DNA from: Pirellulales bacterium
GTDB lineage: Bacteria; Planctomycetota; Planctomycetia; Pirellulales; Lacipirellulaceae
Direction of reading: 5' to 3'
NCBI GenBank assembly: GCA_022448265.1
Contig: JAKVCC010000006.1
Span: forward strand, 1-64,000
DNA length: 64,000 nucleotides
Shown here: positions 31,893-64,000 of the stretch, one piece after another
Layout of the letters: each line of letters starts with the position of its first letter
Numbering within the stretch: position 1 is the first letter of the stretch
Made by a program: the position numbers and the translations under genes
The notes under the pieces: model-generated
Database searches by the model: none
Told to the model about the DNA's origin: nothing
The model's input: the letters and a program-made list of their open reading frames with translations, nothing else

Positions 31893-33134
31893 ATGGGGTT
31901 TGCCGTGTTTTATTCTCTCAACGTCGGTCGCCGACCGCATTGGCTAGCAGTTGTCGTGTGCCTGCTGTTTAATACACAGTTGCATGCAACGCAGTTTAGC
32001 TGGTTGCAACCCGATCTCGATTGGCTGTCCTATGTAAACGCTATTGGGGCTGGTAATCGCGCCTTTGGACCAAGCTGGATCGGTGGATTGGAACTAGATG
32101 GGCAAACAAATGAATTTGTCCCAAAAGGCAAGGAATCGCCATCAAGGCTTGGAATGCCGTTGGTTGCCTTCGATACATCAAGTGATGTGGTTGCTGGATT
32201 GCCCCCCAGTCAATATCAAATAAATTCAGTTACGCTCACTATGACAATGGCCAGTGCAACATTTCCGAGCGAGTTTATTTTTTATGATGATACGCCGGAT
32301 ACGCAGGCAGAGGTCCTCGCTGACATTCAAAGTGGTAGTTTTGATTCGCAGCGTCCTATGGAGCTTTACGGAGTTGGCTTTCGAGAGGGGTACATAGGCT
32401 TCGAATTTGCAGTGCCAGCAAGTGACTCCGCTTTACTGGACGAAAGCACGCAAATTTATGGGGCGAGTGACGGCGGTTATCTTGCCTATCCAATTTCTAG
32501 CGACGCAACAGGTCAACCACTCGATGTGTCCAATAGCATCACGGGTGGATTCAGTGAAACCGCTCCTGCGAATACGACGGCACCATTTGATCCCGTGCCT
32601 TGGTCTATAGGGACCACGAGCCTTTCCGTTGCCGCTGCAATCCCAGACGATACGACATTCACGTTCGACGTGAATCTCGCTGAACCGGGCGTATTGGATT
32701 ACGTGCAACAAGGACTTGCCAATGGCGAAATGGGCTTCTTTGTCTCCTCGTTAACTTTAGCCGCTCAGCCTGGCTTAGGAATCTTTCCCTATCCCCAGTG
32801 GTACTTGAAGGAGTCCGGTGGGGGAGCTGTCAACGGAATTCCGCCTACGCTTGAAATTGACGTCACCATACCCGGAGACTTCGACGAAGACGGTGATGTT
32901 GACAGTTTCGACCTCGCAGAGTGGCAGCTGCGCTACGGGGTCGATAGTGGTGCCGATGCAGATAGCGACAACGATTCGGATGGAGAAGATTTCTTGATCT
33001 GGCAAAAAAACTATACGGGGTCCGGGGCATTAGCGGTAACAGTGGTTGTTCCCGAACCAGCATCGATGGTTTTATTGTTAGCATTCTCCATTATTTCTGT
33101 CCGACCAAGCTTTCTGCGAGAGTATCGCCAGTAG
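31893..33134 (+). CDS. dockerin-like, PEP-CTERM exported protein
   Basis: This 413-residue protein begins with a signal (HWLAVVVCLLFNTQLHA), has a body of unknown fold (beta-rich; repeated TFPSEFIFYDDTPDT, VTLTMTMASATF) and ends with a two-motif calcium-binding dockerin (GDFDEDGDVDSFDLAEWQ and DSDNDSDGEDFLIWQKNY) and a PEP-CTERM-like tail (VVPEPASMVLLLAF). The dockerin would mediate docking to a surface scaffold or act as a calcium module. It is followed by the pseudopilin gene with an intergenic space of only 12 bases, so the two are probably co-transcribed. Confidence 0.75.
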   Translation: MGFAVFYSLNVGRRPHWLAVVVCLLFNTQLHATQFSWLQPDLDWLSYVNAIGAGNRAFGPSWIGGLELDGQTNEFVPKGKESPSRLGMPLVAFDTSSDVVAGLPPSQYQINSVTLTMTMASATFPSEFIFYDDTPDTQAEVLADIQSGSFDSQRPMELYGVGFREGYIGFEFAVPASDSALLDESTQIYGASDGGYLAYPISSDATGQPLDVSNSITGGFSETAPANTTAPFDPVPWSIGTTSLSVAAAIPDDTTFTFDVNLAEPGVLDYVQQGLANGEMGFFVSSLTLAAQPGLGIFPYPQWYLKESGGGAVNGIPPTLEIDVTIPGDFDEDGDVDSFDLAEWQLRYGVDSGADADSDNDSDGEDFLIWQKNYTGSGALAVTVVVPEPASMVLLLAFSIISVRPSFLREYRQ

Positions 33135-53457: not shown

Positions 53458-53666
53458 TTCAAAATTGTTGCGATGGCCGAGGGGGTCTAGTAGAATAGAT
53501 CAGTAGTGGATACAGAGAGCGAATTCCCAAAAATTTTGAGCTAGCGCCGCCGCCACAGATCAGCGCACTAAGTTGCCTTTGGGCTACCAGCAGTGCAGAA
53601 TTCCTGGCGGCATTCTTTTTGGGCAGGGGCCCCGGCTATGTGGCAGCGCCGAGCGAGGAACAGAAG

Positions 53667-55460
53667 ATGAAGACGAACACCGCTTCGTTGTGCTTGTGGC
53701 GGGCAGTCCTTGTGGTTGGCCTGTTGGCGGCGCCGGCCTCGGCAGAATCTCTGGACACAGAAATCATCTTTACCGCTTCTGACGCGTCTATTGACGATCG
53801 GCTGGGCCAGGCGGTGGCTATCAGCGGCAACGTTGCCATTGCCGGGGCGGACCGTAACAGCCATGCGGGCATTCATTCTGGGGCGGCCTACCTGTTTGAC
53901 GTGACAACAGGGAACGAACTGTTCAAGCTGACCGCCTCGGATGCCGACGAGAGGGACGTTTTTGGGCATTCGGTCGCGATTAGCGGTAATACTGCCATTG
54001 TCGGTGCACAGAACAACGACGACGTGGTCAATCTCTCAGGCTCGGCCTACTTGTTCGATGTGACCACGGGAACAGAGCTCTTCAAGCTAACCGCGTCCGA
54101 TGCCGCAGAAGGCGACCAGTTTGGCCACGGCCTGGGAGTTAGCGGCAACCGCGCCATTGTAGGATCATTCCGCGATGACGACATGGGCAAGGATTCTGGC
54201 TCGGCGTATCTATTCGACGTTGCGACCGGCGAGGAACTCTTCAAGATTACCGCCTCCGATGGTGCGGCAGGCGATTGGTTTGGCTACTGGGCGGCGATCA
54301 GCGGCAACCTAGCCATTGTCGGGGCGCGCCGCGACGACGGCGTGGGTATCAATTCCGGATCGGCCTATGTGTACGATGTGACTACCGGCGAGGAATTGAT
54401 GAAACTCACTGCCTCAGACGAAACAGCGGGTGCCGAATTCGGCTATGCCGTGGCCATCGACGGTACTACGGCCATCATCGGAACCTGGGGAGACAATTTC
54501 ACACAGGCTCAACCGGGCGCAGCCTACCTGTTTGATCTGACCACCGGCAATGAACTGGCAAAATTGACTGCCTCTGACGGTGTGTTCGGTGACGAATATG
54601 GCTACTCAGTGGACATCGACGGCGACACGGCTATTGTCGGGGCCTACGGCGATGCGGGCGCCGCCTATGTGTACGACGTGACCCGGGGCTACGAGCTTTT
54701 TAAGGTGACCGCCTCCGATACCGCAGCGGGCAATGAGTTTGGAACGGCCGTGGGAATCAGCGGCAACATAGGCGTCGTGGGGGCATGGCTCGACGATACT
54801 AGCGTACCGAATACGGGGCAGGCTTATTTGTATGACTTTTCGGCGGAGTTACCTCAGGGTGCCGACTTCAACGACGATGGTGTGGTTGATAACGCGGATT
54901 TGTTGCTGTGGGAGAAGGCCTACGCGGGACCACAATTTGACGCCAATGACGATGGTCAGGTCATGGGTGTTGACTTTCTCTTTTGGCAGCGGAGCTTCGG
55001 TGCGGATGGAACGGTGCTGGACGATAGCCCAGCCAACTTGGATCAGCAAGGTCCGGTAGATGGCAGCGACGCTGTCATTTGGGAGCAAGCGTACGGCGTT
55101 GACGATTTTGGGGACGTGGACAACGACGGCGATACGGACGGCTTGGACTATCTCGAATGGTTGCGAGCGTTCACTCCCTATGACGCCGCAGACGAGAATT
55201 ACGATCGGCTGGTGGACGGCGGTGACCTGCTGCTATGGTGCGCCTCGTATGGCTATACAGGAGTCCTCCAAGCAGACGGGGACGGAGACGGCGACAGCGA
55301 CAGCGACGGACTCGACCTCCTGGTGTGGCAGCAACAGTTTACCGGATCACCGCCGCTAGCCAGTGCTGTACAGGTACCCGAGCAAGGGTCGTGGCTGTTA
55401 GTTTTAGAGTTTCTGGTCACCTGGATCGGTGGATGCCGGTATCGCTTTGGGCGAAATTAA
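53667..55460 (+). CDS. seven-repeat FG-GAP-like propeller protein with dockerin modules
   Basis: This 597-residue exported protein has a signal (LCLWRAVLVVGLLAAPASAE) followed by seven tandem repeats of about 55 residues. Each has the pattern ASDxxxGDxFGxxVAISGNxAIVGA and ends xYLFDVTTGxELFKLT. Seven repeats fit a seven-bladed beta-propeller. The following 200 residues contain at least four calcium-type dockerin half-modules (NDDGVVDNADLLLWEKAY, DNDGDTDGLDYLEWLRAF, GDSDSDGLDLLVWQQQF) and a degenerate PEP-CTERM tail (VPEQGSWLLVLEF). The ATG at 53667 has GAGGA 7 bases upstream. Probably a surface or secreted protein; the function is unknown. Confidence 0.82.
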   Translation: MKTNTASLCLWRAVLVVGLLAAPASAESLDTEIIFTASDASIDDRLGQAVAISGNVAIAGADRNSHAGIHSGAAYLFDVTTGNELFKLTASDADERDVFGHSVAISGNTAIVGAQNNDDVVNLSGSAYLFDVTTGTELFKLTASDAAEGDQFGHGLGVSGNRAIVGSFRDDDMGKDSGSAYLFDVATGEELFKITASDGAAGDWFGYWAAISGNLAIVGARRDDGVGINSGSAYVYDVTTGEELMKLTASDETAGAEFGYAVAIDGTTAIIGTWGDNFTQAQPGAAYLFDLTTGNELAKLTASDGVFGDEYGYSVDIDGDTAIVGAYGDAGAAYVYDVTRGYELFKVTASDTAAGNEFGTAVGISGNIGVVGAWLDDTSVPNTGQAYLYDFSAELPQGADFNDDGVVDNADLLLWEKAYAGPQFDANDDGQVMGVDFLFWQRSFGADGTVLDDSPANLDQQGPVDGSDAVIWEQAYGVDDFGDVDNDGDTDGLDYLEWLRAFTPYDAADENYDRLVDGGDLLLWCASYGYTGVLQADGDGDGDSDSDGLDLLVWQQQFTGSPPLASAVQVPEQGSWLLVLEFLVTWIGGCRYRFGRN

Positions 55461-62086: not shown

Positions 62087-63427
62087 CTAGCGAGCCGTCA
62101 CTCGACCGTAATGGCGAGTACACAGGCAGCAATGCATGCCGATGGCTAGTAGCGCCAGGAGTGTACTGGAGGGTTCAGGTACAACGGACCCGAGGAGAGG
62201 ATTGAGCAGCGAAGGGTCTCCCGCGATTCGGAAGCCCACGGTTTTTTGGGGCAGGTTATGAACATGCCCAGCCAGATCAGCATCTGCCCCGTCATCAATC
62301 CCGTATGAGGTGTTCCATATCGAAAGATCGTCGCCATCGACATCAAAGTCACCGTCAAAATCGGCATAGAGGGGACTGGCCCCGTCAAACTGTCTTTGCC
62401 AGGATAGGAAATCAGCGCCGTCCGAGTCGTCGTCACCAATTTTCGGTCCGTTGTTGCGTTCCTCAGAACCCATGTGCGTGCCGCCGTTGGGAAAGGCGCC
62501 GCCACGCACGACGTAGAGACCCGCTGCCCACGGATCGGGCTTTGTTGGGTCGGCCTCGACCCACTCAAAGACATTTCCAGACATGTCTTTGGCGCCGTAA
62601 TGGCTCTGGTTGCCTGCCGTGCCTACCGTGGTCAGGTTGCCTCCGGTCGAACCGTTCCAGTTAGCCCCCTTATTCCAATTAGCTGTGAAAGGGCCGGGGT
62701 TGCTGATGTTTCCATCTGAATCGGCCTGGGCACTGATCGGCAAAACGTCCTGTTGGTTGGCATAGCCCCACCATCCGTTACCGTCTTCGGTGTCTGCGCC
62801 CGGTTCGTAGAAAGCTGCCTTGTGCCACTCATGTTCGTTGGGAAGAAAGTACAGTGCTCCTGGGTTGCGGGAGCTGACGTCTTCTACGTTTAAAGCGGTG
62901 AGGACTCCATAGCTGTAGTCGTGGATCGATTCATCGACGTGCACGCCAAACGTGTAGGCACCGTCTTCGGTCGTAGTAGCCGATTGCAGCCCAGTAGGTT
63001 GTCCGTTATGGAGCCAATTTACGTAGCGGGCCGCATCAAACCACGTGACATAATTGACAGGCTTGTTGCCGTAACCGGTTCTTACTGAGTACGTATAGCT
63101 CCCACTACCACCTGATCGATTTATCCCGACAAACGGAAACGCAAAATTACCCATATTGGTGTGATAGAGTTTGTGTGTGTCGGTGGCGGCCACGGCATTG
63201 AGAAATTCCGCATACTGATCGTTGGTAACTTCGTACTCGCCAATCAAGTAATTGTAGCTAACCGAACCGTATCCGGTTGTTCCGTCCTTCATAATCGCCG
63301 TATGCTCGGGATTTCCGGGGTCGCCCACTTCGACCCAATCCGTCACCACGACAGCCTTCACGTTATCTGCTCCTCCCCAACCAATTGAGAAGGCGACTAG
63401 TCCTGTGAACAAACGTTGGCGTATCAT
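62087..63427 (-). CDS. formylglycine-enzyme-like (SUMF1) PEP-CTERM protein with inserted dockerin
   Basis: This 446-residue exported protein has a short signal (LFTGLVAFSIGWGGA) and an FGE-sulfatase fold: IGEYEVTNDQYAEFLNAVA, PVNYVTWFDAARYVNWL, LPNEHEWHKAAFY, DMSGNVFEWVEA and RGGAF. Where the final strand should follow SEERNNGPKI, a dockerin-like segment is inserted (residues about 331-388: DSDGADFLSWQRQF and DFDGDFDVDGDDLSIW), after which the fold resumes with TVGFRIA. A PEP-CTERM tail (VVPEPSSTLLALLAIG) ends it. No catalytic Cys pair is seen, so it is probably non-enzymatic. The ATG at 63427 has GGAG 8 bases upstream. Confidence 0.85.
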   Translation of the reverse strand: MIRQRLFTGLVAFSIGWGGADNVKAVVVTDWVEVGDPGNPEHTAIMKDGTTGYGSVSYNYLIGEYEVTNDQYAEFLNAVAATDTHKLYHTNMGNFAFPFVGINRSGGSGSYTYSVRTGYGNKPVNYVTWFDAARYVNWLHNGQPTGLQSATTTEDGAYTFGVHVDESIHDYSYGVLTALNVEDVSSRNPGALYFLPNEHEWHKAAFYEPGADTEDGNGWWGYANQQDVLPISAQADSDGNISNPGPFTANWNKGANWNGSTGGNLTTVGTAGNQSHYGAKDMSGNVFEWVEADPTKPDPWAAGLYVVRGGAFPNGGTHMGSEERNNGPKIGDDDSDGADFLSWQRQFDGASPLYADFDGDFDVDGDDLSIWNTSYGIDDGADADLAGHVHNLPQKTVGFRIAGDPSLLNPLLGSVVPEPSSTLLALLAIGMHCCLCTRHYGRVTAR

Positions 63428-63506
63428 CGAAACAACTCCGTTGATCGTAAGCACGTCTGTGCCGGAACTTGGCCGGTAAATGGGGATTGAGCGAATCCCA
63501 TAGAAT

Positions 63507-64000
63507 TCATTTACCCTTGTGGACCCGTCTGAAACACAAGCAAACGCACCCAGTAACAAATAAACCAAGTGTGCCGGGTTCCGGGACGATTGTCGGCAGG
63601 CCCAGGTTCCCACGAATTTCCCCCATGCCAAACGTAGTCGTATGCACATTAACATAGGACTCCCCGTTTTGCATGATCCCGATAATCGTGGCTGGAGTGA
63701 GCGGGTCGAATCCGGGCTGCGTAAGTGTCGACAAGAGGTGGCTGTCTGTCCAGGTATCGGAGTCGAGATCAACCGAAGCAGGAATAGCCGGTGGTCCAAA
63801 GATCTCGATGAGGTGTTGGGGGTTATTGGCGGCGGCGGTGGCCGGTCCGTGCACATGGAGCTTGGTGAGATCGCCAAATAGACTGTTCCAAGTTACGGTG
63901 TAGGAAATAATATTTGAACTGGTGTCATATTCAAAATGTCCTGTGCCGGTCGCCGGACTGTTGGTCGATCCGTCAGCCTCTGGTCCGTTCTTGACCTGTG
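63507..64000 (-). CDS. CHRD domain PEP-CTERM protein (partial, 5' end outside window)
   Basis: The frame runs off the right edge: the visible part begins QVKNGPEADGSTNSPATGTG and continues HFEYDTSSNIISYTVTWN, the CHRD (chordin-like) domain, then LTKLHVHGPATAAANN, YVNVHTTTFGMGEIRGNLG. The C-terminus is a PEP-CTERM tail (IVPEPGTLGLFVTGCVCL followed by basic residues). At least 163 residues are visible; the signal is not. It lies 79 bases upstream of the SUMF1-like gene on the same strand. Confidence 0.82.
   Translation of the reverse strand, partial: QVKNGPEADGSTNSPATGTGHFEYDTSSNIISYTVTWNSLFGDLTKLHVHGPATAAANNPQHLIEIFGPPAIPASVDLDSDTWTDSHLLSTLTQPGFDPLTPATIIGIMQNGESYVNVHTTTFGMGEIRGNLGLPTIVPEPGTLGLFVTGCVCLCFRRVHKGK

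Follow-up and report, generated by a model that had tools for sequence, protein, structure and literature searches.

A circularly permuted dockerin-like module within the FGE-type domain of a planctomycete surface protein

The gene and its genomic setting

The window analysed here, the first 64,000 nucleotides of contig JAKVCC010000006.1 (C56) from a Pirellulales genome, encodes near its end an exported surface protein of 446 aa from this uncultured planctomycete. The protein opens with a signal-peptide-like start, continues with an FGE-type domain and closes with a PEP-CTERM-like tail, where no dockerin is present. The features of the locus are as follows.

62087..63427, minus strand: gene for the FGE-like protein of 446 aa, with ATG at 63427
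62440..63355, minus strand: portion of the FGE/C-type-lectin-type domain ahead of the insert, the larger of the two, residues ~25-330 (PF03781; pLDDT mostly >90)
62267..62437, minus strand: insert, a permuted dockerin-like module of one repeat period, residues 331-387, missing from a paralogue and from 55 related domains
62368..62434, minus strand: C-terminal half-motif, placed first, DDDSDGADFLSWQRQFDGASPLY, residues 332-354
62276..62367, minus strand: N-terminal half-motif, placed second, ADFDGDFDVDGDDLSIWNTSYGIDDGADAD, residues 355-384
62216..62266, minus strand: remainder of the FGE-type domain, including the final strand TVGFRIA, residues 388-404
62090..62185, minus strand: PEP-CTERM-like sorting tail with VVPEPSS, a hydrophobic stretch and a basic end

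The start codon of the 446-aa protein is predicted, and an earlier in-frame TTG at 63877 would extend the open frame to 596 aa. The sorting tail scored 17.4 bits against PF07589, below the cut-off of 20.7, and an exosortase is encoded in the genome, consistent with surface sorting of the protein.

Positions 62087-63998 of the window and the adjoining L052:4169-11754 (contig C56, ~62-72 kb) form a one-strand run of surface-protein genes, comprising FGE-like, CHRD, LVIVD-repeat, double FGE and FG-GAP proteins, which adjoins polysaccharide synthesis genes and in which most members carry dockerin-like modules or PEP-CTERM tails. The double FGE gene (C56:65717-68062, equivalent to L052:5717-8062) consists of two FGE-type proteins fused into one 781-aa frame, with a whole PEP-CTERM signal in mid-protein followed by a second FGE domain, a dockerin and PEP-CTERM. 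At 53619-55460, an FG-GAP-repeat protein ends in an array of unevenly spaced dockerin-like modules.

An interruption before the last strand of the FGE-type domain

Residues 47-313 matched the Pfam family FGE-sulfatase (PF03781) at E 8e-18, above the cut-off, with the match ending at model position 223/255, and in the paralogue without the insert the match reaches model position 254/255. A full-length AlphaFold model, built on a 52-row alignment, gave pLDDT values mostly >90 to approximately residue 320 and of ~90-92 for residues 391-410, with TVGFRIA forming a strand (397-399) at a pLDDT of ~92; for the insert (residues 328-385) the values were <50. The top structural matches of the model were TvpA (Z 21.6), CarF and EgtB, with human FGE at Z 19, and structural alignments at Z 19-22 covered both flanks of the insert, to approximately residue 405. 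The confident TVGFRIA strand and the two-sided alignments rule out an FGE fold ending before residue 328; the structure prediction that had been proposed as a check of the original prediction thus has the fold continuing past the insert.

The original prediction had named an FGE-sulfatase fold, of which the fold stands, by the Pfam match and the TvpA and FGE structures, but the enzyme does not. The only cysteines of the 446-aa protein are 433, 434 and 436, all in the sorting tail, leaving none in the FGE-type domain; the catalytic cysteine pair of the formylglycine-generating enzyme is absent, and a domain without cysteine cannot be that enzyme. 'FGE-sulfatase' is therefore a label for the fold only.

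The paralogue, encoded at C56:65717-68062 (minus strand) on the same contig just beyond the window end, is 60% identical over residues 7-331, and similarity picks up again at residue 386, leaving an empty site that reads NLGPKPGGGGHQHSFPSRNNGFRVA. Thus RNLGPKPGGGGHQHSFPSRNNGFRVA in the paralogue stands against RNNGPKIG-[insert]-GHVHNLPQKTVGFRIA in the 446-aa protein, and the loop itself, GPKPGGGGHQHSFPSRNNGFRVA, against GPKIG-[insert]-GHVHNLPQKTVGFRIA. Among 55 related FGE domains of the source genome's taxonomic family, RGGx and GFR are separated by 24-33 aa (mean 25.9, sd 1.7), compared with 86 in the 446-aa protein. These comparisons confirm that ~55-57 foreign residues interrupt the FGE-type domain, as had been proposed from an interruption of ~58 residues whose interval, residues 330-388 (62440-62264), proved exact. 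The proposal of an internal loop, not a tail, was likewise borne out by the empty site, the loop lengths, the profile positions given below and the structure model. A further relative of ~60% identity (L067/L089; G021 C145, JAJDEE010000229), present as two overlapping frames, is uninformative on the insert because its contig ends before the insertion site.

In DGR variable proteins of FGE-type fold, the variable region directly precedes the corresponding last strand (PMC5006420), and, by homology to that position, the likely location of the insert is the ligand-facing rim of the domain. The 446-aa protein therefore resembles FGE-type C-type-lectin-fold proteins (PF03781; TvpA 2y3c, human FGE 1y1e), to which its fold aligns on both sides of the insert, but differs from them in a domain without cysteine and a foreign module in the loop before the last strand.

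Dockerin likeness and arrangement of the insert

The insert matched none of the Pfam and NCBIfam dockerin models, PF00404 included, and when rejoined end to start it matched no Pfam family at all. The rejoined insert matched further dockerin-like modules in the source genome at E-values as low as 6e-14; a 15-module profile in turn matched the solved dockerins 2vn5 (E 4e-5), 2vn6, 2y3n and 2mte, and PF00404 was matched by 9/15 modules of the test set. Both halves of the insert matched the dockerin profile, at 29.7 and 45.4 bits, and the two calcium-type half-motifs first noticed in the sequence are thus real, with homologues in the genome's modules and, through the module profile, in 2vn5.

Modelled alone from dockerin rows, and with moderate quality, the insert formed two loop-helix units whose helices span 337-347 and 365-375. 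The top eight Foldseek matches of this model were dockerins, at E-values that were not significant (best 0.52, none <0.5). Inclusion of dockerin slices in the full-length alignment brought no gain, as MAFFT put them elsewhere and the pLDDT of the insert was still <50. Given that low value in the full-length model, the description of the insert as a structural module draws on homology and the moderate insert-alone model. Two tandem calcium-loop-plus-helix half-motifs, a trait of type I dockerins, are present in the insert, and profile searches link the sister modules of the source genome to PF00404 and to solved dockerins. The insert differs from type I dockerins in being internal and circularly permuted, with calcium loop 2 divided between its ends and the canonical half order and contiguity of both calcium loops therefore lacking, in matching no curated dockerin model and in coming from a genome in which no cohesin was found.

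Along the profile of [DL]-[DFL] modules, positions 31-51 come before positions 1-32 in the insert, and once joined end to start the insert aligned to positions 1-51 as a single match of 75.7 bits, which rose to 82.9 bits when two junction residues were deleted. These profile positions agree with the half order having been described as permuted relative to the dockerin of the protein at 31893-33134. Both half orders, [DL]-[DFL] and [DFL]-[DL], are common in dockerins of the taxonomic family, however, so order alone is weak evidence of permutation and was dropped as proof of it. The permutation is instead shown by the cut point, which lies inside calcium loop 2, together with the intradomain linker YGIDDGADAD at the C-terminal end of the insert. 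The half-motif placed first comprises calcium loop 2 from position 5 on, its helix and the tail linker, and the half-motif placed second comprises the whole of calcium loop 1 and its helix, followed by the intradomain linker and the first three positions of calcium loop 2. The loop 2 ligands at positions 5, 7, 9 and 12 (D332, D334, D336, D339) consequently lie at the N-terminal end of the insert and those at positions 1 and 3 (D382, D384) at its C-terminal end, with calcium loop 1 complete. This arrangement shows, at the sequence level, that the insert is a circularly permuted form of the [DL]-[DFL] dockerins of the genome.

Tandem dockerin arrays occur in the source genome (C17, with a 56-aa period) and in relatives, the closest arrangement match within the source genome being L053 (contig C17:39171-39590), an alkaline-phosphatase-like protein with two near-identical tandem dockerins. 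A one-period slice starting in loop 2 would yield the arrangement of the insert, including QFDGASPLY in mid-insert, a linker that resembles post-dockerin tails (C17 QFTGSLSPPL). Judged by its order of elements, the insert equals such a slice from a tandem dockerin array like that of C17, and a natural tandem-slice profile spans all of it at 68 bits. An insertion of a plain-order [DFL]-[DL] dockerin, the first half of whose first calcium loop then decayed, is improbable; such modules are common in the family, but their 50.6-bit alignment to the insert spans only positions 6-54 and leaves both ends uncovered, whereas the tandem-slice profile extends over the entire insert and rejoining gives 76-83 bits. 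Nor would a plain-order insertion explain the C-terminal YGIDDGADAD, which is an intradomain linker of the other class, or the tail-like mid linker.

Origin, distribution and possible role

No close DNA donor was found in the fetched dockerin loci of the source genome, the best array (C17) being only 62% identical. At identical residues, third-base agreement was 18/34 with the C17 array, close to the paralogue background of 85/183; synonymous sites therefore look saturated, and the insertion is not recent. The frame and the six-ligand pattern nonetheless persist in the insert despite this apparent saturation. The draft state of the genome (87 contigs), together with repeat-rich modules being frequent misassembly sites, raises the prospect that the assembly wrongly merged repeats from a different dockerin gene into this one. 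Such an artefact is very improbable, as both joins are in frame and at equivalent codons, no near-identical copy occurs in the dockerin loci examined, and the GC content of the insert (0.550) agrees with that of the gene (0.547).

The most likely course of events is that a non-enzymatic surface FGE-type domain gained in-frame DNA for one dockerin-like repeat unit, at the Gly-rich loop immediately before the last strand. The inserted stretch begins and ends within calcium loop 2 of the donor, giving a circularly permuted module, and its simplest source would be a single period cut from an array of tandem dockerins, or from an equivalent circle. In the paralogue, the host loop consists of successive Gly codons, and GGN-GAN codons stand at the same point of the donor loop; short GGN-GAN matches between the two could have served at both joins. 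The new ends are neighbours within one loop in the canonical order and would thus be expected to be near each other and compatible with a host loop, and calcium loop 2 would be completed only by the meeting of the two ends of the insert.

Searches at the level of the order (296 genomes), class (397) and phylum (392), with the best 11-13 candidates per genome scored, revealed no second case of the insert. Of the 56 FGE domains whose end could be read, 34 run directly into PEP-CTERM, and a dockerin-like tail follows the domain in 15 by automatic count, in addition to four shortened forms. In these sister proteins, the dockerin-like tail lies between the FGE domain and PEP-CTERM. Such FGE-dockerin-PEP-CTERM proteins (e.g. 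L060 and G019; L060 is 56% identical over residues 8-385) share all three ingredients with the 446-aa protein, but theirs is a canonical dockerin tail after GFR, whereas here the module lies inside the FGE domain.

The terminal dockerins of the sister proteins suggest a docking role, and the insert, displayed from its probable place on the ligand-facing rim, is likely to serve in attaching the protein to a further surface partner in a calcium-dependent way. Cohesins were not detected in the source genome, in searches of which one was without a positive control, and are present in 8/43 genomes of the taxonomic family; dockerin-like modules reach up to 78 matches in one family genome (E 1e-4), with cohesins absent or rare. 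Non-cellulosomal use of dockerins in Planctomycetes has been put forward in the planctosome proposal, which was based on genomes with cohesins (PMC6461901); the present case is alike in the non-cellulosomal use of dockerins and differs in that its source genome has no detected cohesin.

The main rival to attachment is that the insert is a tolerated passenger, a flexible acidic loop left by inter-repeat recombination, not dockerin-folded and with no role. This less likely explanation accords with the low model confidence of the insert, the split of one calcium loop, the single known case and the lack of a cohesin found in the source genome. It sits poorly with the age of the insertion indicated by the third-base counts, since an acidic loop of no use would probably have decayed in that time, and with the retention of the frame, the helix tryptophans and all calcium-ligand aspartates. 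This combination of age, open frame and kept ligands favours a folded module, and we infer a nested-domain protein in which a permuted dockerin slice occupies an FGE-type loop and probably has a calcium-dependent attachment role, a reading to which we assign a probability of roughly 0.55. A more speculative and rather unlikely variant is that the split calcium loop 2 is completed when the arms of the host lectin-fold loop meet, forming a calcium clip that shapes the ligand-binding rim.

The literature searched, which included few subscription papers, yielded no description of a dockerin that is permuted or nested. Inserted domains that are themselves permuted have been mentioned for the insertional domains of RNA polymerase (PMC13114784), which combine insertion and permutation as here, the domains being different ones. 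As it concerns a single gene whose function is putative, the finding carries modest weight. It provides a clean natural example of domain insertion and circular permutation seemingly achieved in one step, with the empty site kept in a neighbouring paralogue, and it suggests a general route by which slices of tandem repeats may give rise to permuted modules with close ends, ready for nesting in loops. If the insert folds, it would offer a natural template for calcium-dependent loops in lectin-fold proteins.
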